A DNA stretch of 64,000 nucleotides from Rhodovulum kholense. Its GTDB lineage: Bacteria; Pseudomonadota; Alphaproteobacteria; Rhodobacterales; Rhodobacteraceae. Position numbers and translations under genes: made by a program. The DNA is taken from NCBI RefSeq assembly GCF_003053725.1, contig NZ_QAYC01000003.1, forward strand, positions 310,001 to 374,000. The letters run 5' to 3'. Each line of letters starts with the position of its first letter. The stretch's first letter is position 1. This document shows positions 1,318 to 53,403 of the stretch, one piece after another. Under the pieces are notes generated by a model. The model was not told the origin of the DNA. It did not search any database and saw only the letters and a list, made by a program, of their open reading frames with translations.

Positions 1318-1620
1318 ATGACCGATACCAACTCGACGCTCAACGACGGCGCGCGGGCATCGGGCGCCCAGGAAACGGGCTACCGTCCCGCGCTGATCCG
1401 GGGGGGCTGGATGCTGTTGATGCTGGCCCTCTTCTATGCCGCGCAGATGATCCTGATCATCGCGGCCGTGCTGCAATTCGGCTGGCTTCTCTTTGCCAAG
1501 GAAGAGAGCGAGAGGATCGCCGAATTCGGCGACAAGCTGGCCAACTGGATGGCGATTGCCGCGCGCTACCTGACGGTGACGAGCGAAGCCAAGCCCTTCC
1601 CCTGGACCGACTGGAAATAA
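1318..1620 (+). CDS. DUF4389 domain-containing membrane protein
   Basis: 100-residue protein with one or two membrane-embedded helices in the middle (WMLLMLALFYAAQMILIIAAVLQ) and an amphipathic C-terminal half (FGDKLANWMAIAARYLT), as in DUF4389 proteins. The chosen ATG sits 8 bases after GGAGG; an upstream in-frame ATG at 1276 would add an implausible 14 residues. Co-directional with the host-attachment gene and likely co-transcribed. Function unknown. Confidence 0.72.
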   Translation: MTDTNSTLNDGARASGAQETGYRPALIRGGWMLLMLALFYAAQMILIIAAVLQFGWLLFAKEESERIAEFGDKLANWMAIAARYLTVTSEAKPFPWTDWK

Positions 1621-1641
1621 GCCGGTCCCGGGCTTGATCGG

Positions 1642-1672
1642 GCCGGGTGGCGCAGAGATTGCGCCGCCCGGC
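1642..1672. terminator. Bidirectional hairpin between convergent genes
   Basis: Thirteen-base stem (GCCGGGTGGCGCA/TGCGCCGCCCGGC, one G-T pair) around GAGAT, located between the ends of the DUF4389 gene and pepF, which converge here. There is no T run, so it may act only as a 3'-end stabiliser. Confidence 0.5.
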
Positions 1673-1686
1673 AGTGCGGCGGGGGA

Positions 1687-3510: not shown

Positions 3511-3565
3511 GGGCGATCCTCATTTGTTGTCTCGATCCAGAGATAGAGTGCCGGGGGGCGGCGGT

Positions 3566-5191: not shown

Positions 5192-6189
5192 TCCGCGTCG
5201 CCTTCGGTCGTTTCGCCCTCCCAGGCGGTGGCGACGATGCCCGCGTCATAGCCCTGTTCTGCCAGCCAGCGCCGGAACGGGCCGGTGTAGCCATGGGTCA
5301 TCAGCACCCGCTCGGCCCCCGTCGCGCGGATCGCGGCGTTGAGCCCGTCCCAGTCGGCATGATCGGACAGCACGAAGCCCCGGTCGGCCGCGCGCCGCCG
5401 CCGTACGCCGCGCAGCGCCATCCAGCCCGAGGCAAGCCCGGTCGAGGCCTGACCGAAGCGCCGCGCCCAGGTGCTGCCAAGGGCCGAGGGCGGGGCCAGC
5501 ACCAGAGCGCCGGGATGGGTGCGCGGATCGGTCTCGGGCGTGACCGGCACCGTGTCGGGCAGGGCGATACCTTGCGCGCGCATCACCCGGCAGGTGGCCT
5601 CGATGGCGCCATGGGTCAGGATCGGTCCCCCGCTGTCGCCAAGCCCCACCAGCAGCCGCTGCGCCTTGCCAAGCGCATATGCGCCCAGAAGGCTGGCCTG
5701 GCCCTGAGCTGCGTTTTCCGCCCACCAGTCGCGGATCTCGGCCATCACCTGCGCTTGCGGGCGCCAGCGGAAGACCGGCAGCCCGAAGGTGCATTCGCTG
5801 ATGAAGGTATGGCAGGGCACCGGCTCGAACGGTTCGGACAGCCCGTCGGGCCCGGGCTTGTAATCGCCCGAGACGACCCAGACCTCGCCCGCCACCTCGA
5901 CCCGGATCTGGGCCGAGCCCGGCACATGGCCCGCCGGGTGGAACGAGACCATCGCCGCGCCGATCCGGCGGGTCTCGGCGTAGCGGATGGTTTCCAGCGC
6001 GATGGCGCCCAGCCGGTGGCGGATCACCGGGGCGCCGGTGTCGGTTGCCAGATAGCGGCGGTGGCCGGGGCGGGCATGGTCGGAATGGCCATGGGTGATC
6101 AGCGCCCGGTCGACCGGCGCCCAGGGGTCGATGTAAAAATCGCCTGCGGGGCAGTAAAGCCCGTGCTCGGTGACGCTCAGAACGCTCAT
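5188..6189 (-). CDS. Ligase-associated DNA exonuclease (metallo-beta-lactamase fold)
   Basis: 333-residue MBL-fold nuclease related to the SNM1/Artemis-CPSF group. The metal-binding motif THGHSDHA gives H33, H35, D37 and H38; a second metal motif is HPAGHVPGSAQ, and later SGDYKPGPD and LSDHADWDGL supply the remaining ligands. The ATG was chosen because it starts MSVLSVTEHGLYCPAG, the typical N-terminus; an open frame continues upstream only because of high GC. It is the first gene of a coupled pair with the ATP-dependent ligase (ATGA overlap). It is expected to process DNA ends before ligation; this is family knowledge, not shown here. Confidence 0.92.
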   Translation of the reverse strand: MSVLSVTEHGLYCPAGDFYIDPWAPVDRALITHGHSDHARPGHRRYLATDTGAPVIRHRLGAIALETIRYAETRRIGAAMVSFHPAGHVPGSAQIRVEVAGEVWVVSGDYKPGPDGLSEPFEPVPCHTFISECTFGLPVFRWRPQAQVMAEIRDWWAENAAQGQASLLGAYALGKAQRLLVGLGDSGGPILTHGAIEATCRVMRAQGIALPDTVPVTPETDPRTHPGALVLAPPSALGSTWARRFGQASTGLASGWMALRGVRRRRAADRGFVLSDHADWDGLNAAIRATGAERVLMTHGYTGPFRRWLAEQGYDAGIVATAWEGETTEGDAE

Positions 6190-6258
6190 GGCCCGACTAT
6201 AGCGCGGCCCGGGGCCGGGGCGATTGCATTCGGCGCGGCGGCGGCGCATAGGGCCTCG

Positions 6259-7155
6259 ATGGCCGATGTGCATGTGACCGAACCGATCCATCCCGACGCG
6301 CTGGCGCTGCTGGCCTCGGCGGGGCTGAGTGTATCCTGCGGCTGGCAGGACAGCGACCCCGCCGCCGGGCTGGCGGCCGCGCGCGCCTGGATCGTGCGCA
6401 CTTTTCGCCTGAGCCCCGCGATGATCGCCGGGGCGCCCGCGCTGAAGGCGATCTGCAAGCACGGGGTCGGCACCGACAACATCCCGGTGGCCGAGGCAGA
6501 AGGCCGGGGGATTCCGGTCTTCAACACCCCCGGGGCCAATGCCAATGCGGTGGCCGAGCATACGATGATGCTGCTTCTGGCGCTGGCGCGGCAGGCGGTG
6601 GCGATGGACCGGGTCGCGCGGGCGGGCTTTGCCGGCGTCGAGCAGCTGGCGCCGGTCGAGCTTTCGGGCCGGCGGATGCTGATCGCGGGCTTCGGGCCGA
6701 TCGGCCAGCGGGTCGCGCAGCTGGCGCAGGCCTTCGGGATCGAGGTCACGCTGTGGCACCGGCGGCTGAGCGCCGAAGACGCGGGCGTGCCGGTGGTGCG
6801 CGATCTGCGGGCGGCACTGCCCGCCGCGCAGATCCTCAGCCTGCATCTGCCGCTGAACGAGGGCACGCGCGGGCTGATCGGCGCGGCCGAGCTGGCGGCA
6901 CTCCCTGAGGGGGCGATCCTGATCAATACCGGGCGGGGCGGCATCGTCGACGAGGCGGCGCTGGTCGCGGCCGCGCCCCGGCTGGGCGGCATCGGGCTCG
7001 ATGTGTTCGAGACCGAACCGGCGCGGCCCTCGGACCCGCTTTTCACGCTGCCGAATGCGCTGGTCTCGCCCCATGCGGCGGCGCGCGGCGACCAGAGCTT
7101 CCGGCGGATGGGGATGATGGCGGCCGAGGCGGCGATCCGGGCGCTGGGCGCTTGA
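6259..7155 (+). CDS. D-2-hydroxyacid dehydrogenase (phosphoglycerate dehydrogenase-like)
   Basis: 298-residue NAD(P)-dependent D-isomer hydroxyacid dehydrogenase. The Rossmann motif GFGPIG begins at Gly144. Catalytic elements are NTGRGGIVDE (Arg region), DVFETEP (Glu) and SPHAAA (His). Substrate-side signature HGVGTDNIPVAEAEGRGIPV is close to SerA-type enzymes, but the protein lacks the extra regulatory ACT domain of long SerA. The substrate cannot be set from sequence. The ATG was chosen because the conserved VTEPIHPDAL starts just after it; no strong Shine-Dalgarno is visible. It diverges from the exonuclease gene, with 69 bp between the starts, and its stop overlaps the rpsD promoter -35 box. 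Confidence 0.87.
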   Translation: MADVHVTEPIHPDALALLASAGLSVSCGWQDSDPAAGLAAARAWIVRTFRLSPAMIAGAPALKAICKHGVGTDNIPVAEAEGRGIPVFNTPGANANAVAEHTMMLLLALARQAVAMDRVARAGFAGVEQLAPVELSGRRMLIAGFGPIGQRVAQLAQAFGIEVTLWHRRLSAEDAGVPVVRDLRAALPAAQILSLHLPLNEGTRGLIGAAELAALPEGAILINTGRGGIVDEAALVAAAPRLGGIGLDVFETEPARPSDPLFTLPNALVSPHAAARGDQSFRRMGMMAAEAAIRALGA

Positions 7156-7179
7156 CAGCGGCGGCCGCCCCTGTATAAG
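7152..7179 (+). promoter_or_regulatory. Sigma70-type promoter for rpsD
   Basis: TTGACA at 7152-7157 and TATAAG at 7174-7179, separated by 16 bases. The -35 box overlaps the stop codon of the preceding dehydrogenase. It lies about 160 bp before the rpsD start, leaving a long leader that could carry S4 autoregulatory structure, though none was identified with confidence. Confidence 0.72.
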
Positions 7180-7336
7180 CGCGCCATTCCGGCCCCTCGC
7201 GGCCGGGATTTTCATTGGTGTTGGTGGCCCCCGCAAGGGGATGCCTGTCAGGGTCCGGGCCGTGCCGGAACGGGTCCAGAGGACAACGCCCTTCATTGCC
7301 GCCCGTCGGGCGGCGCCCGTTTGAAGGAGATCAGCC

Positions 7337-7957
7337 GTGACCAAACGCACGTCTGCCAAGTACAAGATCGACCGCCGCATGGGCGAAAACATCTGGGGCC
7401 GCGCCAAGTCCCCGGTCAACCGCCGCGAATACGGCCCCGGCCAGCATGGCCAGCGCCGCAAGGGCAAGCTGTCCGACTTCGGGATCCAGCTGCGCGCCAA
7501 GCAGAAGCTGAAAGGCTACTACGGCGACATGACCGAGAAACAGTTCCGCCGCATCTTCGCCGAGGCCGAACGTCAGCGCGGCGATACCGGCGAGCTGCTG
7601 GTCGGTCTGCTGGAACGCCGTCTGGACACCGTCGTCTACCGCGCCAAGTTCGTGCCGACCATCTTCGCCGCCCGCCAGTTCGTGAACCACGGCCACGTGA
7701 CGGTGAACGGCCAGCGCGTCAACATCCCGTCCTACCGGGTCAAGGAAGGCGACGTCGTCGAGGTCCGCGAGAAGTCCAAGCAGATGGCCGCGCTGCTCGA
7801 AGCGACCCAGCTGTCCGAACGCGACGTGCCCGACTACATCGAGGCCGACCATTCCAAGATGACCGCCACCTTCGTGCGGATCCCGGGGCTGGGCGATGTG
7901 CCCTATCCGGTGGTGATGGAACCCCACCTCGTCATCGAATTCTACGCGCAGAACTAA
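7337..7957 (+). CDS. rpsD: 30S ribosomal protein S4
   Basis: 206-residue primary 16S rRNA-binding protein that nucleates small-subunit assembly; normal length. It starts with GTG preceded by GAAGGAGA. The N-terminal region reads [20 protein letters not shown] and has no zinc-binding cysteines (the C-minus form). The S4 RNA-binding domain lies at residues ~95-160 ([13 protein letters not shown]...[17 protein letters not shown]). It is monocistronic here, outside the usual alpha operon, with its own promoter and a following terminator, as is common in Alphaproteobacteria. Confidence 0.97.
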
Positions 7958-7983
7958 GGTTCCGCGCCGACACGCAAGATCTG

Positions 7984-8017
7984 GGGCCCGTCCTGCTGCG
8001 CGCAGGGCGGGCCCTTT
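7984..8017 (+). terminator. Rho-independent terminator of rpsD
   Basis: Thirteen-base hairpin GGGCCCGTCCTGC / GCAGGGCGGGCCC (one G-T wobble) closed by a short loop and followed by TTTCC, 26 bp after the rpsD stop. Confidence 0.75.
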
Positions 8018-8146
8018 CCATTGCCGGCGCTGCGGTCTCGGGCGCCCGTCCGACGGCACACCTGTCGCCGCGCCGGTTCGCCCGCTTGCCCGAATCCGGG
8101 CGGCGCGCTATGGGCCGCGCGCAGAGGGTCCCTGGGAGTTCCGATC

Positions 8147-8683
8147 ATGGCCGAAAAACCTTCCGTCGAGCAGGCTTTCGAACGCGGGCTTTTCGCGTCG
8201 CGCTGGCTGATGGCGCCGATGTATCTGGGCCTTGTGGTGTCGCTGGCGATGCTGGTCGTCGTCTTCATGCGCGAGATCGCCTATTACGCGCCACAGGTGC
8301 TGACCATGTCCAGCGAGACCGCGATCCTGGCGGTGCTGACGCTGATCGACCTGACGCTGGCGGCCAACCTGCTGCTGATCGTGCTGTTCTCGGGCTACGA
8401 GAATTTCGTCTCGAAGCTGGATATCGGCGCCCATAACGACCGGCCCGACTGGATGGGCACGGTCGATTTCTCGGGCCTCAAGATGAAGCTGATCGCCTCG
8501 ATCGTGGCGATTTCCGGGATTCACCTGCTGAAACGCTTCATGGAGATCGGGCAGGCCAAGGCCGATGCGGTCTATGGCAATACAGAACTGTTCTGGCTGG
8601 TGCTGATCCATATGGTTTTCGTGCTGTCGGGCGTGCTGCTGGCGGCGATGGACTGGCTCTCGGCGCGCGCCAAGAAGCACTGA
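8147..8683 (+). CDS. UPF0114 (YqhA-type) inner-membrane protein
   Basis: 178-residue integral membrane protein of the UPF0114/TIGR00645 family. Four hydrophobic segments are visible: around residues 20-40 ([19 protein letters not shown]), 62-82 ([19 protein letters not shown]), 112-125 and 144-165 ([20 protein letters not shown]). The conserved [12 protein letters not shown] and [18 protein letters not shown] stretches mark the family. The ATG follows GGGAGTTCCGATC. Function is unknown in the family. It lies alone between rpsD and hisC. Confidence 0.85.
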
Positions 8684-8801
8684 GCCCGGACGGCGCGGCC
8701 ACGCCGGTCACGCGGTCCGCCGAACGGCCCGGGCGGGGGCTTTTCGTGCTGGCCTTGGCCCCTGCCGTGGGCTACGGATGCGCGCCAAGGAGACAACGAA
8801 A

Positions 8802-9887
8802 ATGACCAGGATCCCCCCCCAACCCGGAATTCTCGAGATCGCCCTTTACCAGGGCGGGCAGTCGAAAATCGAGGGGATGAGCGACGTCGTCAAGCTGTCG
8901 TCGAACGAGAACCCGTTCGGCACCTCCGAGAAGACGAAAGCCGCCTTCTCGCGCTGCGTGCACAGCCTGCATCGCTATCCCTCGACCGACCATGCCGAGC
9001 TGCGCGCCGCCATCGGCGAACAGCACGATCTCGACCCCGAGCGGGTGATCTGCGGTGTCGGCTCGGACGAGATCATCGCCTTTCTGTGTCAGGCCTATGC
9101 CGGTCCCGGCGACGAGGTGATCCATACCCGGCACGGCTTTGCCATGTACCGGATCTCGGCGCTGGCGGCGGGGGCGACCCCGGTCGAGGTCGACGAGGTC
9201 GAGCGCACCGTCGATGTCGATGCGATCCTTGCCGGGGTGACCGACCGGACCCGGATCGTGTTTCTGGCCAATCCGGGCAATCCCACCGGCACCATGATCC
9301 CCGAGGCCGAGACCCGGCGGCTGGCCGAAAACCTGCCCGATCGCGTGGTGCTGGTGCTTGACGCGGCCTATGCCGAATATGTCGAGGGCTTCGATGGCGG
9401 CCGTGCGCTGGTCGACCGGCACCATAACGTGGTGATGACCCGGACCTTCTCGAAGATCTACGGCCTTGGCGGGCTGCGGGTCGGCTGGGCCTTTGCCGCG
9501 CCCGAGGTGATCGGCGTGCTGAACCGGGTCCGCAGCCCCTTCAACCTCGGCCAGGCGCAGCTTGAGACCGCCGAGGCGGCGGTGCGCGATCAGGCGTTCG
9601 TGACGCGCTGCCGGGCCGAGAACACGCGGCTTGCGGCCTGGCTGGCCGGGGCGCTGACCGAGGCGGGCGTACCGACCGATCCGACCTTCGCCAACTTCGT
9701 GCTGCCGCGCTTTGCCGACGCGGCCGAGGCCGAGGCCTGCGATGCCTATCTCAAGTCGCAGGGGCTGATCGTGCGCCGGGTCGGGGGCTACAAGCTGCCC
9801 CATGCGCTGCGCATCACCGTGGGCGACGAGGCGGCCTGCCGCCGGGTGGCCCATGCCGTGCGGGCCTTCAAGGAGGGGGCTCGGTGA
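8802..9887 (+). CDS. hisC: Histidinol-phosphate aminotransferase
   Basis: 361-residue PLP enzyme (fold type I) converting imidazole acetol phosphate to histidinol phosphate. The Schiff-base lysine is K218 in [15 protein letters not shown]; the N-terminus has [10 protein letters not shown] and later [13 protein letters not shown], both HisC hallmarks. The ATG follows AAGGAGAC; an earlier in-frame ATG at 8778 overlaps that ribosome-binding site and is rejected. It overlaps the next gene (prephenate/arogenate dehydrogenase) by GTGA. That pairing suggests it also transaminates aromatic precursors in tyrosine synthesis, as known for broad-specificity HisC enzymes. Confidence 0.94.
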
Positions 9888-10807: not shown

Positions 10808-11742
10808 TGCGGCGGGCGGGCCTCGGTCTTGCGCTGGTTCTGATCGCCGGAACGGGAAGCGCCGCCACGCTCGACAGTGCACCGCGCCCGAAGCCGCGCC
10901 CGGTTGCCAGCCAGACGGTCGTCCCGGCCGAGGCGCCGGTGGCCGCCCTTCTGGCGGCCCGGCCGCAGATGCGTCCCGAGGACGATGCCGCACCGCCGGG
11001 TGCCGGGGCCGCGCCTGTGGCCGGCCCGGGGCTTGCGCTGCGCCCGCATCCCCGGCCGACCGTCGCGGGGGCGCCCGTCCGCGTGCGCGAGGTCATGGCC
11101 GATCTGACCCTCGAGCGGTCCGCCCGGCCCGAGCCGCGCCCGAGAACGCCCTATCAGACCGCCTCGCTTGCGGCGGCGGGCATCCGCACCCAGCCCTCGG
11201 CCATCCTGACCCCGCGCGGCGGCGTGGTCTGCGGCGATCCGGCGATCACGGGCCAGATGATCGCGCCGATCCCGGGCCGGATCGCGGGCTGCGGGGTCGA
11301 CCGACCGGTGCGGGTGACGGCGGTCGACGGCGTGGCGCTCAGCCAGGCCGCCACCATCGATTGCGACACCGCCCGCGCGCTGCGGGTCTGGGTCAGCGAC
11401 GGCATCAAGCCCGCCGTGGGCCGTCTGGGCGGGGGCGTTGCCTCGCTGAAGGTCTTTGCCCATTACGCCTGCCGTCCGCGCAACAACCAGAAGGGCGCCA
11501 AGGTGTCCGAACACGGGCGCGGCCATGCCGTCGATATCGGCGCGGTGACCTTGCGCAACGGCGTGTCGATGACGGTGGCCCGGGGCTGGAACGACGCCTC
11601 GCAGGGCAAGATCCTGAAACGCATCCATCGCGCGGCCTGCGGTCCCTTCGGCACGGTGCTTGGTCCCGGCTCGGACGGGTTCCACAAGGATCACATCCAT
11701 GTCGATACCGCGCGCTATCGCAGCGGGTCCTATTGCCGCTGA
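10807..11742 (+). CDS. Extensin-like C-terminal domain protein (periplasmic)
   Basis: 311-residue exported protein. A signal peptide is visible ([20 protein letters not shown]), then a Pro/Arg-rich, low-complexity linker to about residue 130, then the extensin-like C domain. The domain contains HGRGHAVDIGAV and DGFHKDHIHVD, an HxxxxxxD plus HxH arrangement like M15/LAS zinc peptidases that cut peptidoglycan cross-links. Four or more cysteines (VVCGD, AGCGVD, YACRP, AACGP) could form disulfides. A peptidoglycan hydrolase role is inferred from motif similarity. It is the last gene of the hisC-tyrC unit, starting one base before tyrC ends. Confidence 0.86.
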   Translation: MRRAGLGLALVLIAGTGSAATLDSAPRPKPRPVASQTVVPAEAPVAALLAARPQMRPEDDAAPPGAGAAPVAGPGLALRPHPRPTVAGAPVRVREVMADLTLERSARPEPRPRTPYQTASLAAAGIRTQPSAILTPRGGVVCGDPAITGQMIAPIPGRIAGCGVDRPVRVTAVDGVALSQAATIDCDTARALRVWVSDGIKPAVGRLGGGVASLKVFAHYACRPRNNQKGAKVSEHGRGHAVDIGAVTLRNGVSMTVARGWNDASQGKILKRIHRAACGPFGTVLGPGSDGFHKDHIHVDTARYRSGSYCR

Positions 11743-11757
11743 AGCGGCCGGCGCCGT

Positions 11758-12759
11758 CTAGCGCAGCCGCAAATTCGGCGCAGGTCCCAGCGGCACCGGG
11801 CCGAGCCAGACCTGCCCCAGCGCAAGGCGCAGCGGCACGTCCAGCATGTCGGGCCGCCCCGACAGCCCCGCCAGCAGTCCCAACGCCGCGTCCAGCCGGT
11901 CCGCCAGCGGCGCGGAAAGCCGCCCCGAGCCGCGCGCAAGCGCGATCATCTCGCGCCAGTTGGTGGCCCGCAGCGTGATCGTTCCCGAGGGCTGGCCCTC
12001 GGCATCGACATCGAAGCGCCCGGCCGCCTTCAGCGCCAGATCGCCCCATTGCGCGTCGAGCCGTCCGATCTCGACCTGTTGCAGCTGCGGGCGCCGGTCC
12101 TCGACCGCGTGCCGGTCCCAGGGCGTGTCGAAGACCGCCACGGCCTCGAGCGCGATCCGGTCGAAGACTGGCGGCAGAAGCCCCGCGGGGTCGAGCGTCG
12201 CGACAAGCCCCTCGGGCGGGCGCATGCCGCTGGCCCTGAGCCGCAGCCGTTGGGCGCCGGGGCGGTCGTCGAGCGCGGCGGTCTCGATCTCGGCGCCATC
12301 CATCGAGGCGCGCCAGCCCGCATCCGACACCAGCCCGAAGGCGCCGACCGAAAGCCGCGCCGAGGCAAGCTCCAGCGCGAGGCCCGGGCGGAAGGCCAGC
12401 GCGCCGGTCATCGCTTCGGCGGTGACTTCGATCCGCTCGGCGGGTGTCGCGATCCGCTGGGTCTCGGGCCAGCGGACGGTGACGTGTTGCGGCCGGTGGC
12501 TGCGCGCGGAAAATCCGAAGCCGGGCATCGACCAGGCGAGCCCGGTGCGCGGATCGGCCAGGTCCAGAGGCGAGAGACGGGTGTCGAAACGGGTGGGGAA
12601 GCCGCTCACCGAGATGCGGCCCGCATCGGCCACCCAGCCCTCGGCGCGGCGGGCATCGAGCCAGGCTGCAAGACCCCGTTCGATCCCGCGCGCGGCCAGC
12701 GCCCAGTAGCCCGACCAGGCCAGCGCCGCCAGCAGCGCCAGAGACAGAAGAAACCGCAT
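11758..12759 (-). CDS. DUF2125 domain-containing protein
   Basis: 333-residue protein with an N-terminal signal anchor (MRFLLSLALLAALAWSGYWALAA), then an AsmA/DUF2125-like beta-rich region exposed to the periplasm. Characteristic phrases are WVADAGRISVSGFPTRFDTRLSPLDLADP and FSARSHRPQHVTVRWPETQ. The ATG with GAAAGGGGG 8-14 bases upstream is chosen over an ATG eight codons earlier. It converges with the extensin gene. The function is unknown; AsmA-like proteins are linked to envelope lipid handling, which is only a guess here. Confidence 0.82.
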   Translation of the reverse strand: MRFLLSLALLAALAWSGYWALAARGIERGLAAWLDARRAEGWVADAGRISVSGFPTRFDTRLSPLDLADPRTGLAWSMPGFGFSARSHRPQHVTVRWPETQRIATPAERIEVTAEAMTGALAFRPGLALELASARLSVGAFGLVSDAGWRASMDGAEIETAALDDRPGAQRLRLRASGMRPPEGLVATLDPAGLLPPVFDRIALEAVAVFDTPWDRHAVEDRRPQLQQVEIGRLDAQWGDLALKAAGRFDVDAEGQPSGTITLRATNWREMIALARGSGRLSAPLADRLDAALGLLAGLSGRPDMLDVPLRLALGQVWLGPVPLGPAPNLRLR

Positions 12760-14655: not shown

Positions 14656-16320
14656 ATGGCCCTGACCCGGCGCAGCGGCGGACGGTTCCAGGCCACGATC
14701 TGGCCGGGCTTCGTCGATGCGATGACGGCGCTGTTGCTGGTCCTGATGTTCGTGCTGTCGATATTCATGCTGGTGCAGGAGATGCTGCGCGAGACCATCA
14801 CCGGGCAGAAAAGCGAACTGACCGAGCTGAATGCCGAGCTGTCGGCACTGGCCGATGCGCTGGGAATGGAACGGCAGCGCGCCTCGGGGCTGCAAGATCA
14901 GGTGGGCGAGCTGGGCGCTGCGCTGAGCACGGCGCGCAGCGATGCCGAGGCGCAGGCCGCGCTGATCGCGACGCTGCGCGACCGGGTCTCGGTGGGCGAG
15001 GCCGATCTGGCCGCCGCGCGGAGCCGGATCGACGATGTCGAGGCGCGCCTGGCCCAGATTTTGACCGAGCGCGATGCGGCGCAGGCGCGGGGCGATGCGC
15101 TGGCGGGCGAGGTGGCCGATCTCAAGGGCACCCGCGACCGGCTGGAGGCGGCGCTGGCTTCCACCCGGCAGGAGGTCGATGCCCAGACCGAGGCTGCGCG
15201 GCTGGCCGCGGCGCGACGCGAGGCGCTGGAGGCCCTGATTGCCGACCTGCACGCCCGGAACGCTGAAACCGAGGCGGCGCGCGCGGAACTGGCGGACAAG
15301 GTCGAAAGCACCGAGGCCGCGCTGTCGCAGGCCGAGAAGGACCGTCTGGCCGAGGCGGCGGCGGCTGCGGCGCTGCGCGACAAGCTGGCCGGGTCCGAGG
15401 ATGAATTGACCGCCATGAGCCTGGCGCTGGAAGAGGCCCGCAAGCGCGCCGAGGACACGCTGACCCTGCTGGCGGCGGCCGAGAAGGCGCGCGATCAGGC
15501 CGCGACGAAGGCCGAGGGCGCGCTGGACGAGGCCGACCGGCGCGCGGCGTTGCTGGCGGTGGCGAACGAGACGCTCGACAAGGAAGAGGCCAAATCGGCC
15601 GAAAGCCAGCGGCAGGTCGAGTTGCTGAACCGGCAGATGGCGGCGCTGCGCGGCCAGCTGGGCCATTTGCAGGGGCTGCTGGACGCGGCCGAGGATCGCG
15701 ACGCCGCCGCGCGCGTCCAGATCGAGACGCTGGGCAGCAAGCTGAACGCGGCGCTGGCGCAGGCGGCGTCCGAACAGCGCGCGCGCGCCGAGCTGGAAGA
15801 GGCCGCGCGCCGGAAGGCCGAGGAAGAGGCCGCGCGGCTGGCGGCCGAGAAGAAGACGCTGGAAGGCTACCGGTCGGAATTCTTCGGGCGCATGCGCACC
15901 CTTCTGGCCGGGCGCGAGGGCGTCAGGATCGTGGGCGACCGCTTCGTGTTTTCGTCAGAGGTGCTGTTCGAGACCGGCAAGGCGGATCTGTCGGACGATG
16001 GCGAGGCGCAGATCGCCAATGTGGTGTCGATCCTGCGCGAGGTCGCGGGCGAAATCCCGCCCGATATCGACTGGATCCTGCGGGTCGACGGCCATACCGA
16101 CGATGTGCCGCTGGCGAAGGGGGCCGATTTCGCCGACAACTGGGAACTGAGCCAGGCCCGCGCCCTGTCGGTGGTGCGCTACATGACCGAGGATCTGGGC
16201 TTTCCGCCCGACCGGCTGGCGGCGGCGGGCTTCGGCCAGTACCAGCCGGTGGCGGCGGGCGACAGCCCGGAGGCGCGCGCCCAGAACCGCCGGATCGAGC
16301 TGAAACTGACCGAGCGCTGA
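14656..16320 (+). CDS. OmpA/MotB-like protein with single TM helix and long coiled coil
   Basis: 554-residue envelope-spanning protein. Residues ~15-40 form one membrane helix carrying an acidic residue at its start (GFVDAMTALLLVLMFVLSIF), placed as the proton-carrying Asp of MotB/ExbD. Residues ~45-410 are an almost uninterrupted Ala/Glu/Arg coiled coil. The C-terminal ~140 residues are an OmpA-type peptidoglycan-binding domain (VDGHTDDVPL, NWELSQARALSVVRYM, AQNRRIELKL). It would anchor the ExbB-like channel upstream to peptidoglycan across a long distance. The two genes are adjacent with a one-base gap. Related pairs are annotated simply as biopolymer transporter plus peptidoglycan-binding protein; the job is unknown. 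Confidence 0.84.
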   Translation: MALTRRSGGRFQATIWPGFVDAMTALLLVLMFVLSIFMLVQEMLRETITGQKSELTELNAELSALADALGMERQRASGLQDQVGELGAALSTARSDAEAQAALIATLRDRVSVGEADLAAARSRIDDVEARLAQILTERDAAQARGDALAGEVADLKGTRDRLEAALASTRQEVDAQTEAARLAAARREALEALIADLHARNAETEAARAELADKVESTEAALSQAEKDRLAEAAAAAALRDKLAGSEDELTAMSLALEEARKRAEDTLTLLAAAEKARDQAATKAEGALDEADRRAALLAVANETLDKEEAKSAESQRQVELLNRQMAALRGQLGHLQGLLDAAEDRDAAARVQIETLGSKLNAALAQAASEQRARAELEEAARRKAEEEAARLAAEKKTLEGYRSEFFGRMRTLLAGREGVRIVGDRFVFSSEVLFETGKADLSDDGEAQIANVVSILREVAGEIPPDIDWILRVDGHTDDVPLAKGADFADNWELSQARALSVVRYMTEDLGFPPDRLAAAGFGQYQPVAAGDSPEARAQNRRIELKLTER

Positions 16321-16323
16321 GCG

Positions 16324-17736
16324 TCAGCGCCGCCGCCGTCCCTTGGGAACCGGCAGCGGGCGCACCCGCTTTTCGATCTCGTCGTACAGCATGCCCGCGA
16401 TGTTCTTGGCCGAGGCCTTCTCGATTCCCTCGAGCCCGGGCGAGGAATTGACCTCCAGCACCTTGGGCCCGTCATGGGCGCGCAGAACGTCGACCCCGGC
16501 GAGGTTGAGCTTGAAGGCGCGGGCCGCGCGCACCGCGGTTTCGCGTTCCTGCGGGGTGATCTTGACCGGCACCGCATAGCCGCCCTGATGCAGGTTCGAC
16601 CGGAATTCGCCCTCGGCGCCAGTTCGTTTCATTGCCGCCACGACCTTCGATCCGACGACAAGACAGCGGATGTCCTCGCCCGCGGCTTCCTTGATGAAGC
16701 GCTGGACGAGGAACGAGGCCTTCAGCCCGCGAAAGGCCGAGATCACCGATTCGGCCGCGTTGGTGGTTTCGGCCAGCACGACGCCCTTGCCCTGCGTCGA
16801 TTCCAGCAGCTTGACGATCAGCGGCGCGCCGCCCACCAGCGAGATCAGGTTGCCGGTATCCTTGGGCGAGGCGGCAAAGGCGGTCGTCGGCATGCCGATC
16901 CGGTGCCGGGCGAGGATCTGATGGGCATGCAGCTTGTCGCGGCTCGCGGTGATGCCTTCGGAGCCGTTGACGCAATAGGTGCCGATGGTCTCGAACTGCC
17001 GGATGACGGCGGTGCCGTAGGCGGTGACCGAGGCGCCGATCCGCGGGATGATCGCGTCATAGCGGGGCAGGCGGGCGCCGTCGTAATGGACCTCGGGCGC
17101 CAGCGCGTCGAGCGCCATGTAACAGCGCGCGGTGTCGATCACCTCGACCACATGGCCGCGCGTCTCGCCCTCGGACACCAGCCGCGCGGTCGAATAGTTG
17201 TGCGGCTCGCGGCTGAGCACGGCGACGCGCAGCACCCGCGCGGGCGCCACCTCGCGCACGCGCTGGCTGTGATAGACGTCATAGGACAGGATCGGCTGGC
17301 AGAAACTGTCGACCGGGCTGACGAGGACGTCCTCGCCCAGCGCCTGCCGGCCCAGCAGCATCCGGTAGGCCATGCCGCCCCGGTGGGTCAGGGTCAGCTC
17401 GATCGGCCAGCGCCGCTCGCCCACCACGATGTCGGCGGCGATGACATAGCGCCATTCGGAATCGCCGTTCGACGAGGTCACCTCGCGGCGGTCGACGACG
17501 GTGGCCGAGCAGGGGATCGACAGATCCTCGCGCCCGGGGATCGGATGCACCGCAAAGCGGACCTTGGGCCGCGAGGCGGGCCCGAAGGGCTCGATGTCGA
17601 AGGCATGCAGCGCCGAGGTCTTGGCCCCGGTATCGACCTTGGCCTTCATCGCGGGCAACCCCAGCTCGGGCAGCGAGATCCATTCTTCCCAGCCAAGGCG
17701 AAAGCCCGGGAGCGCCAGTTCGGTGTGCTCGGTCAT
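16324..17736 (-). CDS. RimB-RimK fusion: retropepsin-like domain plus ATP-grasp glutamate ligase
   Basis: 470-residue two-domain protein. Residues ~10-150 are a PF05618 (RimB, 'ATP-dependent zinc protease') domain with the retropepsin-like [13 protein letters not shown] motif (Asp35-Thr36-Gly37). Residues ~170-465 are a RimK ATP-grasp ligase with [32 protein letters not shown] and [13 protein letters not shown] (magnesium/ATP site). RimK adds glutamates to a protein C-terminus, ribosomal S6 in E. coli, or makes poly-alpha-glutamate. The fusion keeps synthesis and processing in one chain. The ATG is chosen where [12 protein letters not shown] begins. It converges with the OmpA-domain gene with three bases between stops. 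Substrate unknown. Confidence 0.88.
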
Positions 17737-17949
17737 GCGGATCGTCCTGTGCGGTGGCCGGGCGCGCGGCCCGTTTCCTTCCCAAGTGCTGTCCGGTGTC
17801 CTGTCCCGAGGCCGGACCTGTCGCGCCCTGTTAGCGAAGCCCGCTCCGGGGGCACAAGCGGCGCATCGTCCCGGGGCCGGAGATTTTCGTCTGAAGCGGC
17901 GCGCCGGAGCCTCTGTCCCCGGCCGCGCCGGGCTGATATGCGAACGTCC

Positions 17950-19077
17950 ATGACGACATTCGGTTTCACCCTTCACGCTACCGACGGTGCCGCGCGCACC
18001 GGCGCCATTGCAACCCCGCGCGGCACGATCCGCACCCCCGCCTTCATGCCTGTCGGCACCGCCGGCACGGTCAAGGCGATGCTGCCCGAAAGCGTGGCGG
18101 CGACCGGCGCCGACATCCTGCTGGGCAATACCTATCACCTGATGCTGCGGCCCGGGGCCGAGCGGGTGGCACGCCTTGGAGGGTTGCACGCCTTCATGCA
18201 TTGGGACAAGCCCATCCTCACCGATTCCGGCGGCTTCCAGGTCATGAGCCTGTCGGGGCTGAGGAAAATGTCGGAGGACGGGGTCGCCTTCCGGTCGCAT
18301 ATCGATGGCTCGACCCACATGCTGAGCCCCGAGCGCAGCATGGAGATCCAGCGCCTCTTGGGGTCCGACATCGTGATGTGTTTCGACGAATGCCCGGCGC
18401 TCCCGGCCTCGGAGGCCGAGGTCGCGCGCGCGATGCGGCTGTCGATGCGCTGGGCCGAGCGGTCGAAGGCGGCGTTCGGCGACCGTCCGGGCCATGCGCT
18501 GTTCGGGATCATGCAGGGCGGCGTCACCCGCGAGCTGCGCGAGGAATCGGCCCGGGCGCTGACGGCCATCGGCTTCGACGGCTATGCGGTGGGCGGGCTC
18601 GCGGTTGGCGAGGGGCAGGAGGCGATGTTCGGCGTCCTCGACTATGCCACCGGATTTTTGCCCGAGGACCGGCCGCGCTATCTGATGGGCGTCGGCAAGC
18701 CCGACGACATTGTCGGCGCGGTCGCGCGCGGCATCGACATGATGGATTGCGTTCTGCCCTCGCGCTCGGGGCGCACGGGGCAGGCCTTTACCCGGCGCGG
18801 CGTCGTCAACATCAAGAACGCGCGCCATGCCGACGATCCTCGGCCGCTGGACGAGCACTGTTCCTGCCCGGCCTGCCGCAACTATTCGCGCGCCTATCTG
18901 CACCATGTGTTCCGCGCGCAGGAGATCCTCTCGTCGATGCTGCTGACCTGGCACAACCTGCATTATTTCCAGGAGCTGATGGCGGGCATGCGCGCGGCCA
19001 TCGCCGAGGGCCGTTTCGCGGCCTGGCAGGCGGCGTTCCATGCCAAGCGGGCCGAGGGCGACATCGACCCGCTCTAG
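17950..19077 (+). CDS. tgt: Queuine tRNA-ribosyltransferase
   Basis: 375-residue TIM-barrel enzyme exchanging guanine-34 for preQ1 in GUN-anticodon tRNAs. Signatures are [29 protein letters not shown], and the zinc site [16 protein letters not shown] (Cys-x-Cys-x2-Cys plus His). Catalytic Asp residues lie in the TDSGGF and [12 protein letters not shown] stretches. Start [13 protein letters not shown] is preferred by family length; an in-frame ATG at 17938 would add four residues, and neither has a strong Shine-Dalgarno. It diverges from the RimB-RimK gene. No other queuosine genes lie in the window. Confidence 0.95.
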
Positions 19078-19198
19078 GCGGCGGGCGCCGTTGATGGCGG
19101 GTTTACCCTGGCGGGGCTTTGCCCGGACGGGGGCCGTCTCGGCGCTTGCGCCGGGTGCGCCGGGCGGGCATTCTGGACCCCGGAACATGGCGGGCATG

Positions 19199-19225
19199 TT
19201 GAATTGGCGACCAATTGCCCCAGAT
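19199..19225 (+). promoter_or_regulatory. Heat-shock (RpoH/sigma32)-type promoter for lon
   Basis: TTGAA at 19199-19203 and CCCCAGAT at 19218-19225, 14 bases apart, match the sigma32 pattern (CTTGAA, 13-17 bases, CCCCATnT) with one -10 mismatch. The element lies 79 bp before lon, a classic heat-shock gene. The spacer contains a perfect inverted repeat AATTGG-CGA-CCAATT at 19202-19216, which might be an operator or coincidental. Confidence 0.6.
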
Positions 19226-19303
19226 AATGACAGCAGACCGGGGACGGCCATGCGCTGCCGATGATCGGGGCCGGTAGCCGTCCAGCGAACCTAAGGATAC
19301 CTC

Positions 19304-21715
19304 ATGCCCGAGCATATCAGCTCTTCCTATCCAGTCCTTCCGCTGCGCGATATCGTGGTCTTCCCCCACATGATCGTGCCGCTCTTCGTCGGCCGCGAGA
19401 AATCCGTCCGTGCGCTCGAAGAGGTGATGCAGGACGACAAGCAGATCCTTCTGTCGGCACAGATCGACCCGGCGGTGGACGAACCCTCGACCGAGGGCAT
19501 CTACCGGACCGGCGTGCTGGCCAACGTGCTGCAACTGCTCAAGCTGCCCGACGGCACCGTCAAGGTGCTGGTCGAGGGCAAGACGCGGGTGCGCACCACC
19601 GGCTATCTCGACAATCCCTCCTTCTTCGAGGCGAGTTGCGAGCCGCTGTCCGAGGACCTAGGCGACGAGGAGGTGGTCGAGGCGTTGCTGCGCTCGGTCG
19701 GCGCCGAGTTCGAGCGCTATGCCAAGGTCAAGAAGAACATCCCCGAAGAGGCGCTGTCGGCGGTCGCCGATACCCGCGAACCGGCCAAGCTGGCCGATCT
19801 GGTCGCGGGCCATCTGGGCGTCGAGGTCGCGCAGAAGCAGGAGCTTCTGGAAACGCTGACCGTCGCCGAGCGGCTGGAGAAGGTCTATGGCCTGATGCAG
19901 GGCGAGATGTCGGTCCTGCAGGTCGAGAAGAAGATCAAGACCCGCGTCAAGTCGCAGATGGAGCGCACCCAGCGCGAATACTATCTGAACGAGCAGATGA
20001 AGGCGATCCAGCGCGAGCTGGGCGATGGCGACGATGGCCAGAACGAGATCGCCGAGCTGGAAGAACGCATCGCTGGCACCAAGCTGTCGAAGGAAGCCTC
20101 CGAGAAGGTCGCGGCCGAGGTCAAGAAGCTGAAGTCGATGTCCCCGATGTCGGCCGAGGCGACGGTCGTGCGCAACTATCTCGACTGGATCCTGTCGCTG
20201 CCCTGGGGCGTGAAATCGCGGGTCAAGAAGGACCTGACCGCGGCCGAGAAGGTTCTGGACAACGACCATTACGGGCTTGAGAAGGTCAAGGAACGGATCG
20301 TCGAATATCTGGCGGTGCAGCAGCGCAGCCAGAAGCTGAAAGGCCCGATCCTCTGCCTCGTCGGCCCGCCTGGCGTCGGCAAGACCTCGCTTGGCAAGTC
20401 GGTCGCGCGGGCGACGGGACGCGAATTCATCCGCATCAGCCTGGGCGGCGTGCGCGACGAATCCGAGATCCGCGGCCACCGCCGGACCTATATCGGCTCG
20501 ATGCCCGGCAAGATCATCCAGGCGATGAAGAAGGCCAAGACCACCAACCCGCTGATCCTGCTCGATGAAATCGACAAGATGGGGCAGGATTTCCGTGGCG
20601 ACCCGGCCTCGGCCATGCTGGAAGTGCTGGACCCGGAACAGAACGCGACCTTCGTCGATCACTATCTCGAGGTCGAATACGACCTCTCGAACGTGATGTT
20701 CCTGACCACGGCCAACAGCTACAACATGCCGGGCCCGCTTCTGGACCGGATGGAGATCATCAGCCTCGCGGGCTACACCGAGGACGAAAAGCGCGAGATC
20801 GCCGAACGTCACCTGGTGCCCAAGCAGATGAAGAACCACGGGCTGAAGGCCAAGGAATTCGAGCTGACGCCCGAGGCGCTGACCGAGATCATCCGCCGCT
20901 ATACCCGCGAGGCGGGGGTGCGGAACCTCGAGCGCGAGATCGCCAAGCTGGGCCGGAAGGCCGTGACCAAGCTGATCAAGAAAGAGACCGACAAGGTCAC
21001 CATCGGGCCGGATGTCCTCGAGGACTATCTGGGGGTCAAGAAGTACCGCTACGGGCTGGCCGAGAAGGAAGACCAGATCGGCGTCGTGACCGGGCTGGCC
21101 TGGACCTCGGTCGGGGGCGATCTTCTGTCGATCGAGGCGCTCAAGTTGCCGGGCAAGGGCCGGATGAAGACCACCGGCAAGCTGGGCGATGTGATGAAGG
21201 AATCGATCGACGCCGCCTCGAGCTATGTCCGCTCGATCGCGCCCGAGATCGGCTTCAAGCCGCCGCGCTTCGACAAGATCGACATCCACGTCCACGTGCC
21301 CGAGGGCGCGACGCCCAAGGACGGCCCCTCGGCCGGGGTGGCGATGGTGACCTCGATCGTTTCGGTGCTGACCCAGATCCCGGTCCGCAAGGATATCGCG
21401 ATGACCGGCGAGGTGACGCTGCGCGGCAATGTGCTGGCCATCGGCGGGCTCAAGGAGAAACTGCTGGCGGCGCTGCGCGGCGGGATCAAGACGGTGCTGA
21501 TCCCGGAAGAGAACGAGAAGGACCTGCGCGAGATCCCCGACAACGTGAAGGAGGGGCTGACGATCATCCCCGTCTCTCATGTCCGCGAGGTTCTGAAACA
21601 GGCCTTGGTGCGCGAACCCGAGCCCATCGAATGGGACGAAGCCGCCGAGGAAGCCGCAGCGGCCGCCGCCGCCAAGGCCTCGGGCGGCGAGGCGGCGGGG
21701 CAGGTCGCGCACTGA
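19304..21715 (+). CDS. lon: ATP-dependent endopeptidase Lon
   Basis: 803-residue AAA+ serine protease degrading misfolded and regulatory proteins; standard length. The N-terminal substrate-binding domain begins with [19 protein letters not shown]. Walker A GPPGVGKT is at 354-361 and Walker B is LLDEIDKM. The protease domain has the Ser-Lys dyad: Ser676 in [11 protein letters not shown], with the lysine in [14 protein letters not shown] some 43 residues later. An Ala/Glu-rich tail ends the protein. The promoter upstream looks heat-shock type, and a strong terminator follows. Confidence 0.98.
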
Positions 21716-48050: not shown

Positions 48051-48140
48051 GGAGAGGTGGCCGAGTGGTCGAAGGCGCACGCCTGGAAAGTGTGTAGGCG
48101 GGAAACCGTCTCCAGGGTTCGAATCCCTGTCTCTCCGCCA
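48051..48140 (+). tRNA. tRNA-Ser (anticodon GGA)
   Basis: Class II tRNA with long variable arm. Acceptor GGAGAGG pairs with TCTCTCC (one G-T), the anticodon loop CTGGAAA gives GGA, the variable arm contains AGGCGGGAAACCGTCTC, and the T loop is TTCGAAT. Discriminator G at 48137 and encoded CCA at 48138-48140. It borders the accessory scar to its right. Confidence 0.95.
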
Positions 48141-48311
48141 TATGCTCTTGAAATCACTGAATATTTTCCCGCTCAGGGAAATCTATTGCCGATCTAGTGA
48201 CAGTTTTCGCGCGGTAGATTTGGGGTGCCCACAAGGGTTTCGTGCTTGGATGTTCACTGGTACGTGAAGCCTGCGTCTTTTCACCCCCACAAGGAAGGTT
48301 CTTACCTGTTA
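48141..48311. other. Short spacer between tRNA-Ser and the IS5-family element
   Basis: About 170 bp, less GC-rich than the neighbourhood, with no gene, no recognised repeat and no copy of the tRNA 3' end. It is likely the left remnant of the accessory region into which the IS landed. Confidence 0.4.
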
Positions 48312-49151
48312 GGCTCCAGACCCATTGATTTCAGGCTTTTGGCGTGATTCAGGCTCCGCAAGGAGACCTGATCGATGAGCAATCTTTACTGGCTGACTGA
48401 TGCGCAGATGGAGCGTCTCAAACCGTTTTTTCCCAAGAGGCATGGCAAGCCCCGCGTCGACGATCGTCGCGTTCTCAGCGGCATAATCTTCATCAATCGC
48501 AATGGGTTACGGTGGTGCGACGCACCAAAGGAATACGGCCGGGCAAAGACCCTTTACAACCGTTGGAAGCGCTGGAGCGACAATGGGGTCTTCGCCAGGA
48601 TCATGGTGGGCCTAGCCGCCGAGAGTGCAGAGCAAAAGACGATCATGATCGACGCGACATATCTCAAGGCGCACCGCACGGCATCAAGCCTTGGGGTAAA
48701 AAGGGGGGCGCGGACGCCAGAGCGGGCGCACCAAAGGTGGCATGAACACCAAGTTGCACGCCGTTGCCGATGCGAAAGGGCTGCCGATCAGGTTCTTCAT
48801 GTCGGCCGGTCAGGTGAGCGATTACACCGGCGCGGCGGCGCTGCTGGGCGACCTTCCGAAAGCAGGCTGGCTGCTCGCCGATCGAGGTTATGACGCCGAT
48901 TGGTTCAGAGAAGCGTTGAACGACAAGGGGATAAAGGTTTGCATCCCCGGCCGGAAGTCCCGCAAGAAGGCCGTGAAATACGACAAGCGGCGCTACAAGC
49001 GCCGCAACCGCATCGAGATCATGTTCGGCCGCCTGAAGGATTGGCGGCGCGTCGCAACTCGATATGACCGGTGCCCGGAGACCTTCTTCTCTGCGATCAT
49101 GCTCGCCGCGACCGTCTTGTTCTGGCTGTGAAACTCAATGAGTCTGGACCC
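48312..49151 (+). mobile_element. IS5-family (IS427-type) insertion sequence, complete, 840 bp
   Basis: The left end starts GGCTCCAGACCCATTGATTT at 48312 and the right end (reverse complement of 49129-49151) reads GGGTCCAGACTCATTGAGTT, so imperfect terminal inverted repeats of about 23 bp are clear. Both flanks carry TA (48310-48311 and 49152-49153), the expected target duplication. It encodes a two-frame transposase (48375-49131). It separates the drmA relic from the tRNA-Ser side. Confidence 0.88.
48375..49131 (+). CDS. IS427-type transposase, two frames joined by a probable frameshift
   Basis: DDE transposase of the IS5 family. The first frame (from 48375) starts MSNLYWLTDAQMERLKPFFP and carries MIDATYLKAHRTASSLGVK. 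The second (open from 48700, first ATG 48742) continues GGRGRQSGRTKGGMNTKLHAVADAKG, with ADRGYDADWFREAL and a final KRRNRIEIMFGRLKDWRRVATRYDR. Together they make the ~250-residue protein normal for IS427 members. The frames meet at A5G6 (48698-48708), a slippery run where a +1 (or -2) shift gives the full enzyme. Such splitting is usual in this group, so the element may still be active. Confidence 0.85.
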
Positions 49152-49731
49152 TAGAACGGCCCGGTCGGCGTCATCAAGGCCAGCAGCGGCGCAAGCGTCG
49201 CGTATACCCGCTGGATTTGGCATTCGAGAAACCGCAGTTGCCGAGCTTATCGCCGCAGTGAATCAATGTCCGGCCCGCAATCCTGTCGACCTCTATGTCG
49301 CGCCCGCCTGCACTCTCCGAACCTCACCAAGGACAGATCGTAAGCTGCGCTGGTGATGCAATGCCTGACTTGTTGCGGTCGTTGTTTCGAATGGCCTCGA
49401 CAGCCTTGTGTGACGCCTCGGTAGCGCCCGGCGTGACACGATTGCCGACCCAGAGGCCGAGTATGAATGGTTCCGTGCCCCAGATCTTGTCGTCTGCACG
49501 ACGGCTGACCTCCATCGCGCAGAGCAGCGTCGTGGCCCGCGGGAATTGTTGTAGCGTCAGAAGGCGCAGTGTGTAGCGCATGATGACAGCGAGACCGCGT
49601 GAAGCGTCGAGGCCGCCTAGATCATTTTTCAAGCGGCGCATGGCCATGGCGAAGGCCGCCACACCGAGATAGGCTTCGGTCTTCCTGCTACCCGTCGGGA
49701 ACCAGAGGAGGTCCGCGAACGCCTCGACCGG
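49152..49731 (-). pseudogene. drmA: drmA relic: DISARM-type DEAD/DEAH helicase fragment
   Basis: The minus strand encodes a clear piece of the DISARM helicase DrmA: a Walker A-like FPTGSRKTEAYLG (family GGGKT altered to GSRKT), then GLAVIMRYTLRLLTLQQF and the cysteine-rich start CPW. A TGA at 49326-49324 stands where the second Cys of the CPWCG zinc motif belongs (TGC to TGA), yet homology-like sequence continues (GRDIEVDRIAGRTLIHCGDKLGNCGF) to near 49180. The right edge is cut by the IS at 49152. The N-terminal part is absent and abuts the brxL fragment. It is dead. Family recognition is from memory of motifs, not a database search. Confidence 0.72.
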
Positions 49732-49750
49732 CTTCGTCCGGTCCGGATGA

Positions 49751-49962
49751 GCCGTAGCCTTTGGTGAACATTTCACCGCGGATGACGTCGATCTCGCAGC
49801 CCGGCAGGCAGGCGTGCAGGCGGTCGTTGAAGGCGGAATCGTGGAACTGGCTGGGCAGCGCTTCGAAGAGGTCGCTGTTCTTGCGCATGAACGGAACAGT
49901 GTGGTCGGTGTTGCCGACGAAAGAAACGCTGGCCTCCGCGCCCATTGGGTTGACCCTGCTGG
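49751..49962 (-). pseudogene. brxL: brxL relic: Lon-related BREX protein fragment
   Basis: About 65-70 residues resembling the BrxL AAA+ core: EASVSFVGNTDHTVPFMRKN, LFEALPSQFHDSAFNDRLHACLPGCEIDV and IRGEMFTKGYG. In intact BrxL this stretch is followed by a conserved VDYLAE-type segment and a Lon-like protease domain; here it runs within 20 bp into the drmA relic in a different frame. A deletion has fused two defence genes. The 5' side is cut by the IS3-family tail at about 49963. The intact-family W of PGWE is C here. No function is left. Confidence 0.68.
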
Positions 49963-50135
49963 AACCTGCGCCATGCCCGCGGCCTGATCACGGCGTGGAG
50001 AGACGACTACAACCGTCACCGCCCCCAACACGATCCTCGACGGGCTCACCCCGTGGAGTGATACCAAAGGTCGAAGGAGGACCAAACCCTGAACAGAGTT
50101 CACCCATAAACGCGGACTCCGAGGGGAGCAGGTCA
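49963..50135 (+). mobile_element. IS3-family (IS407-type) insertion-sequence tail, degraded
   Basis: Plus strand encodes the C-terminus of an IS3 OrfB transposase in three frames: LRHARGLITAWRDDYNRHRP, then NTILDGLTP, then YQRSKEDQTLNRVHP ending at TAA 50107-50109. At least two frameshifts break it. The end GGGGAGCAGGTCA (50123-50135) matches the terminal repeat style of IS407-group elements (TGACCTGC at the other end). The 5' part is missing and its edge meets the brxL relic. Confidence 0.72.
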
Positions 50136-50652
50136 CTGGCAATCTCAAGGACGACTGGATTCGGGAGAGCCCGGCGATCGGGGCGTGGACGAAGGAACGG
50201 CGATGCGTTTGGGTGTTCGCGTGCGCGGAGAAATCGTCGTATGGATCGCAGCTTGACTGGGGGACTGTCCTGAAAAGGGGGGCAGTGTCCCGCCTGCGCG
50301 GGGCGAAGGTCGCAGCCCGGCGCCTCAACAGGAACTGACGGCCGTTTGGCCGTCAGCGCACAGGTCGGATGAATAGGTGCGGCTCAATAGCCGCGGTGGC
50401 CACGGTCGGCGAAGCCGCCAACCTGTCTCACGCAATCAAGGCCGTTGTCGTCTTGTGACGGTCCCCCAATTCCCCCCTGAAAATGTCTTGTGAAATATCT
50501 GTCAAAAATCGTCCTCAATATGGACTTATCATAGCCCAAACTTGATCCAGCGCAAAGCGGAACCGGGTTGCCGGAACAAAAACTTTTGTTTCAGAAAATG
50601 ACATCGCCCCGGGTTTTGGCCCGGGGCGATTTGTTTTCAACGGCTTGGCGGA
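50136..50652. other. Right part of the accessory scar, no gene recognised
   Basis: About 515 bp without a supportable gene. It contains G-run strings (GGGGGACTGTCC near 50262, GGTCCCCC near 50460), a hairpin CTGACGGCC-GTTT-GGCCGTCAG at 50335-50356 without a T run, and an A/T-rich 80 bp at 50480-50600 before the acnA terminator. It is probably further mobile-element debris. Confidence 0.45.
50603..50630 (-). terminator. Rho-independent terminator of acnA
   Basis: Perfect eleven-base stem ATCGCCCCGGG/CCCGGGGCGAT with a six-base loop, 22 bp after the acnA stop; on the minus strand GTCATTTT follows. On the plus strand TTGTTTT follows, so it may insulate in both directions. Confidence 0.82.

Positions 50653-53403
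<2,751 letters not shown>

Follow-up and report, generated by a model that had tools for sequence, protein, structure and literature searches.

Joined pseudogene pieces of brxL and drmA near a tRNA-Ser gene: a probable dead mosaic from ordinary BREX and DISARM operons

Near a tRNA-Ser gene in the window (the whole stretch of 64,000 nt analysed here) of Rhodovulum kholense, pieces of two defence genes, brxL and drmA, lie side by side, which raises the question of whether they record a mixed BREX–DISARM locus, as the earlier note had proposed for the case that the two genes had once been neighbours, or scraps of two ordinary operons that came to be joined. The earlier note had read BrxL-like and DrmA-like cores on the minus strand, and the profile search that it suggested recovered both at the expected place. 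Positions 49691–49945 of that strand matched BrxL (PADLOC PDLC02508, E = 8e−29; NCBIfam TIGR02688, E = 2.5e−17; Pfam BrxL_ATPase, PF13337, E = 4.3e−17), and positions 49327–49779 matched DrmA (PADLOC PDLC02567, E = 4.2e−60; NCBIfam DISARM_DrmAS, NF038325, E = 1.1e−60; no match in the Pfam profile search). The minus strand thus consists, from 49207 to 49963, of two abutting gene pieces (Table 1).

Table 1. Positions of the relic and of its neighbours in the window, with the basis of each assignment.
Feature	Position	Strand	Basis
tRNA-Ser(GGA), left border	48051..48140	+	
IS5-family element	48312..49151	+	transposase profiles; inverted ends read by eye
drmA pseudogene piece	49207..49752	-	profile matches; DNA alignment to relatives
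brxL pseudogene piece	49746..49963	-	profile matches; DNA alignment to relatives
3' scrap of IS3-family transposase gene, joined to the brxL piece	49963..50137	+	
Aconitase gene acnA (presumed), right border	50653..53403	-	

The limits of the pieces were taken from DNA alignments to the genes of relatives, in whose coordinates the drmA piece spans approximately residues 596–777 (182 residues) of a 1329-residue DrmA, and the brxL piece approximately residues 301–373 (~73 residues) of a 702-residue BrxL. Each is less than one-seventh of its parent gene, which bears out the earlier view that both had lost most of their length. The profile matches in this genome are correspondingly partial, TIGR02688 being covered only from 300 to 364 of 449 positions and NF038325 from 453 to 637 of 1165 if the in-frame stop is ignored. 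Of BrxL, only this part of the AAA+ (MCM-like) ATPase core is present, with no full-length protein carrying the N-terminal DNA-binding part and the C-terminal Lon-like or HKD part; the piece falls inside the AAA+ ATPase domain as domains are placed in the text available of a 2026 survey (PMC12839542). The join itself lies at ~49750, as seen from the overlap of the alignments and from the sequence there, and about 3 bases could come from either parent. A 20-bp gap had earlier been seen between the cores, but codons 66–85, the last 20 of the ORF in the BrxL frame, already belong to the drmA piece, out of its frame, and the pieces abut. Family searches with BrxL and DrmA matched this genome at the relic only. 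DNA searches of the genome, at a level that more distant copies would escape, found neither the class 1 DISARM partners of drmA (drmD, drmMI, drmB and drmC; query drmD–drmC of L006) nor the BREX-1 partners of brxL (brxA, brxB, brxC, pglX and pglZ; query the type 1 BREX operon of L041).

Both pieces have decayed. In that of drmA, a single stop interrupts the reading frame, and the ATP-binding motif, which we take to be Walker A, is damaged, its glycines being replaced; neither an intact motif nor an open full-length frame is found. Among its 181 codons, 15 are changed at places where Paracoccus caeni (L006), Limimaricola pyoseonensis (L007) and Pseudotabrizicola algicola (L008) agree, and 12 of these changes are replacements or a stop and 3 are silent, against 2–3 replacements and 13–21 silent changes when the three relatives are compared among themselves. 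Because of the stop, the damaged motif and this excess of replacements, the drmA piece appears to be dead. At 6 of 65 residues the brxL piece departs from a state shared by four relatives (L041, L042, L078 and L162). The protein-change loads (12/181 codons and 6/65 residues) are roughly similar, albeit counted against different sets of relatives, and would fit loss of both genes at about the same time without proving a single event. Judged by these patterns, the relic appears to be a dead mosaic of two pseudogene pieces that has decayed as neutral DNA, and not a working gene.

The source of the drmA piece was sought among 35 loci carrying its relatives (65–94% protein identity, all used), in which tblastn searches with proteins of both systems gave the gene order. 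The order drmD–drmMI–drmA–drmB–drmC was found in 31 of the 35. In three others (L023, L030 and L037) it begins late owing to the start of the contig, and in Roseovarius azorensis (L038) we saw only drmA, matching in two frames at 2130–2671, and drmB, with no drmC downstream in the DNA examined; this last operon is probably damaged. No BREX gene was detected at any of the 35 loci, each covered over 8.8–20.4 kb. Five L006 proteins compared with PADLOC profiles fit a class 1 DISARM assignment, and the drmA piece shares 95% DNA identity with L006 and L007. By this comparison its parent would be an ordinary DISARM operon of class 1 (drmD–drmMI–drmA–drmB–drmC). The relic differs from such an operon in the shortness of its drmA (~182 of 1329 residues), in the stop and the Walker A damage, and in that the DNA search of the genome found no further part of the operon.

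Some features of these loci are recorded here in their own right. Two extra genes lie between drmMI and drmA in ten of them (L012, L015, L020, L027–L029, L031, L032, L034 and L044), annotated in Microvirga (L044) as an ATP-binding protein and an O-methyltransferase, and the same two genes precede drmA in L030, which is cut upstream. In P. algicola, genes on the opposite strand after the DISARM operon (14848–20426) resemble phage tail genes by eye. The protein in the drmD position of L006 (823–3939) scores best (1561 bits) with the PADLOC model PDLC02572, labelled DrmA, and lower with the DrmD models; the label of PDLC02572 is probably wrong.

The brxL piece can similarly be placed. Its closest relative found, 91% identical over 65 residues, is in a genome of the same family (G1068) that has two complete BREX-1 operons (brxA, brxB, brxC, pglX, pglZ and brxL), each closed by one of the two brxL copies (L165 and L166); another genome of the family (G207, L167) has pglX–pglZ–brxL in the stretch examined. 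The 65-residue core is also 80–89% identical to BrxL on four Rhodobacterales plasmids. Two plasmid copies, L041 (Paracoccus sediminicola, 82% DNA identity to the piece) and L043, belong to complete BREX-1 operons, and in a further one (L042) a transposon interrupts pglX. The closest brxL on a named record, from Pseudorhodobacter turbinis (L078), is itself part of a broken BREX-1 remnant, with the whole of brxL and the last third of pglZ at 18247–21191 and no further BREX-1 gene detected over 40 kb; since it keeps the end of pglZ with brxL, brxL-side remnants of BREX-1 occur elsewhere too. The close relatives of brxL lie, then, in type 1 BREX operons, some of them broken, and none of the seven stretches around them (L041, L042, L043, L078, L165, L166 and L167) contained a DISARM gene. 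These surroundings suggest that the piece came from an ordinary type 1 BREX operon (brxA–brxB–brxC–pglX–pglZ–brxL), to whose BrxL AAA+ ATPase the relic core is 80–91% identical; it differs in retaining ~73 of 702 residues, with conserved positions changed and no other BREX piece found.

Could the two genes nonetheless have formed a true mixed BREX–DISARM system, with brxL functioning within a DISARM operon? Apart from the two pieces lying side by side here, nothing speaks for it, and we consider it highly unlikely. Against it stand the lack of BREX genes around close relatives of drmA and the position of the close brxL copies, all in whole or broken BREX-1 operons free of DISARM genes. A BrxL match was moreover absent from 32 of the 35 genomes with a close drmA. 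As for the remaining three, one (G047) has its drmA on a contig of only 12,097 bases with no BREX gene on it, another (G037) has BrxL ~0.4 Mb from drmA, provided that contig C1 is the record of L027, and the third (G035) has no BREX gene in the 20 kb examined at its drmA locus.

Family searches at wider ranks give the same picture. The BrxL and DrmA searches of the order each drew 390 genomes, treated as one set because their handles agree where shown, and matched 24 and 17 genomes, respectively, own genome included (two of the DrmA matches, G282 and G313, are weak and partial). Both genes occurred in 3 of the 390 (G000, which is the genome studied here, G140 and G426), against approximately 1 expected by independence; in G140 and G426 they are on different contigs, both genomes being drafts in which linkage is still possible. 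From the genus (n = 16), only G000, G003 and G015 are among the order matches listed. In the class, 11 of 385 genomes matched BrxL, own genome included, and DrmA was found in none of the nine other class genomes with BrxL over the family cut-off. In the family, 28 of 394 genomes matched some part of the relic, and the join was absent from all 393 genomes other than its own. The plasmid matches listed for the two pieces (30 of 81 and 30 of 287 records) have no record in common, and a phage collection gave no match. On the strength of gene order at the 35 loci, the BrxL search in the genomes that carry them, the order and class searches and the brxL surroundings, we rejected the mixed system as a candidate: the relatives of each gene belong to ordinary operons of their own, the searches turned up no linked pair, and nothing outside the relic itself supports a mixed locus.

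ARMADA and other YprA-helicase systems share parts with BREX according to the available text of PMC12458937, and systems pairing a YprA-type helicase with BREX-like proteins do exist. The partners described there, however, are BrxHII- and PglX-like, the word "BrxL" being absent from the main text of that paper; the DrmA piece strongly matches DISARM DrmA profiles. A paper that treats BrxL, DrmA and DISARM together describes no linked pair in the text available, and no BREX–DISARM hybrid is named in the titles and abstract openings of the papers listed on these systems. The main text of the 2026 BREX survey (PMC12839542) contains no word starting with "Drm", and the available text of PMC10952713 adds nothing further on the relic.

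We then considered the site. The earlier note had put the relic at a tRNA-Ser border, and this stands in part. The tRNA-Ser(GGA) gene is real, collinearity with the closest sister (G015) ends exactly at its 3' end, and it serves as an integration site in sister species; the relic, on the other hand, is ~1.1 kb away, with the IS5 element in between, and the acnA side is likely non-native. The IS5 transposase is split into two overlapping frames (48375–48893 and 48742–49131; NF033580, E = 5.5e−31 and 3.3e−42). The IS3 scrap has 92% DNA identity over 49963–50131 to another place in the same genome, matches plasmid records, some of them annotated as IS3 family transposase, and weakly matches residues 337–367 of 369 of NF033516 (E = 0.013). 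Within 50120–50340 only 57 bases match, in one plasmid record annotated as IS3 family transposase, and 48141–48330 has no plasmid match. No integrase was noted by eye among the ORFs listed around the relic, and a second copy of the tRNA-Ser 3' end (att repeat) was not found in the window.

Sister genomes carry other islands at this tRNA, and the intact BREX/DISARM island for which the earlier note had suggested looking there did not appear. Directly after the same tRNA-Ser, G015 (L069) has a type III restriction-modification pair (3087–7270) and, further on, a serine recombinase (11133–12614); after this tRNA, G005 (L073) has a tyrosine recombinase, a relaxase and a Vsr endonuclease within 1434–9683, an insert that appears from its gene content to be an integrated mobile element. 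No BREX or DISARM proteins were found at 50 flank loci, except for the relic itself (L119) and matches in L073, namely Vsr and a weak cytosine-methylase-like match.

The right border is unexpected. The gene there, which we take from its sequence to be acnA, is found in all 16 genomes of the genus, own included, and its native flank is kept from ~50327 in G015, where genes for a serine recombinase and RepB/ParB lie in the acnA flank. Here acnA and tRNA-Ser are neighbours, whereas in four relatives with few contigs they lie 0.15–1.1 Mb apart (G007, G010 and G013, with the GGA anticodon confirmed at the matching tRNA-Ser, and G008, identified by matching place only). More fragmented drafts, in which the two are on different contigs, are of little weight, and the locus opened in G014 was a tRNA-Ser of another anticodon. 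In G007 and G013, acnA follows what is presumably a ccm-type cluster; in the present genome that cluster is on another contig (L157), and the 19 kb at this other side of the rearrangement held no BREX or DISARM piece. In the relatives with a readable distance acnA thus lies elsewhere, and the relic sits at a chromosomal rearrangement breakpoint between two island-prone borders, or at a misassembly; the adjacency across 48141–50326 would be lineage-specific or artefactual, and the far side of the scar probably differs from the native far side of a tRNA-Ser island.

An assembly artefact could in principle account for the join between brxL and drmA as well. The genome is a draft of 51 contigs, other places in it hold relatives of the IS5 and IS3 pieces beside the relic, and acnA is beside this tRNA in no relative with a readable distance. 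Each of the two pieces, however, is found once in the genome, so that there is no repeat to mislead the assembler at the join itself, and both have decayed to a similar degree. We therefore regard an artefactual join as very improbable, the outer flanks beside the IS pieces being less secure than the join. It is more improbable still, to the point of being nearly negligible, that the fused piece makes a small functional protein or RNA. The DrmA frame does contain an ORF of 334 codons (49324–50328), but in its first half the IS3 and BrxL pieces are translated on the wrong strand or in the wrong frame, a PADLOC match is confined to its DrmA part, and the damaged ATP-binding motif and neutral-looking changes argue against a product.

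Very probably, then, the relic is a dead mosaic in which pieces of an ordinary BREX-1 brxL and a class 1 DISARM drmA were joined by illegitimate recombination and then decayed neutrally. The course of events we infer as follows. Illegitimate recombination at a few shared bases would have removed everything between brxL and drmA. In the simplest version, a single defence island would have held both operons in the same orientation, BREX-1 upstream of DISARM-1, and one deletion of ~10 kb or more, a size estimated from operon lengths, would have welded them. Further joins would have removed the outer parts, with neutral decay afterwards; alternatively, the relic may have formed in several steps, rearrangement included. 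The earlier claim that a deletion joined the genes holds insofar as the relics are joined after loss of most of both, a single deletion being one possible history. Against a single deletion, no intact BREX-then-DISARM island was found as a source, and the brxL piece also ends against the interior of an IS3 transposase gene, which requires at least one more join. The breakpoint at this site, and the lack in the window of a second tRNA-Ser 3' end such as would delimit an island on its far side, count against it too.

Separate acquisitions brought together by several joins, including the acnA rearrangement, would compete with the single-island step only, and we hold them to be a possible though less favoured course. 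They would accord with the 0.15–1.1 Mb between tRNA-Ser and acnA in the few-contig relatives, with the mobile islands that each border has of its own in G015, with the third, unrelated scrap (IS3) joined to brxL, and with the failure to find a linked brxL–drmA pair. Speaking for a common origin instead, both pieces are on the same strand, their change loads are similar, as if they had died together, and defence systems are known to cluster in islands. There is a slim chance that BREX-1 stood directly upstream of class 1 DISARM in an ancestral tRNA-Ser island as a co-transferred or cooperating unit, extinct here and unsampled elsewhere.

Under the favoured reading of a dead mosaic, the relic is a genetic scar, an ordinary pair of decayed pseudogenes at a spot with much island traffic, and no new immune system. 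It records how defence genes come and go where elements integrate at a tRNA, until decayed scraps welded together are left, and cautions that defence-gene pieces lying side by side in a relic say little in favour of a hybrid system. An intact BREX-1/DISARM-1 tandem island at this site, were one to be found, would bear on how both systems travel and cooperate.
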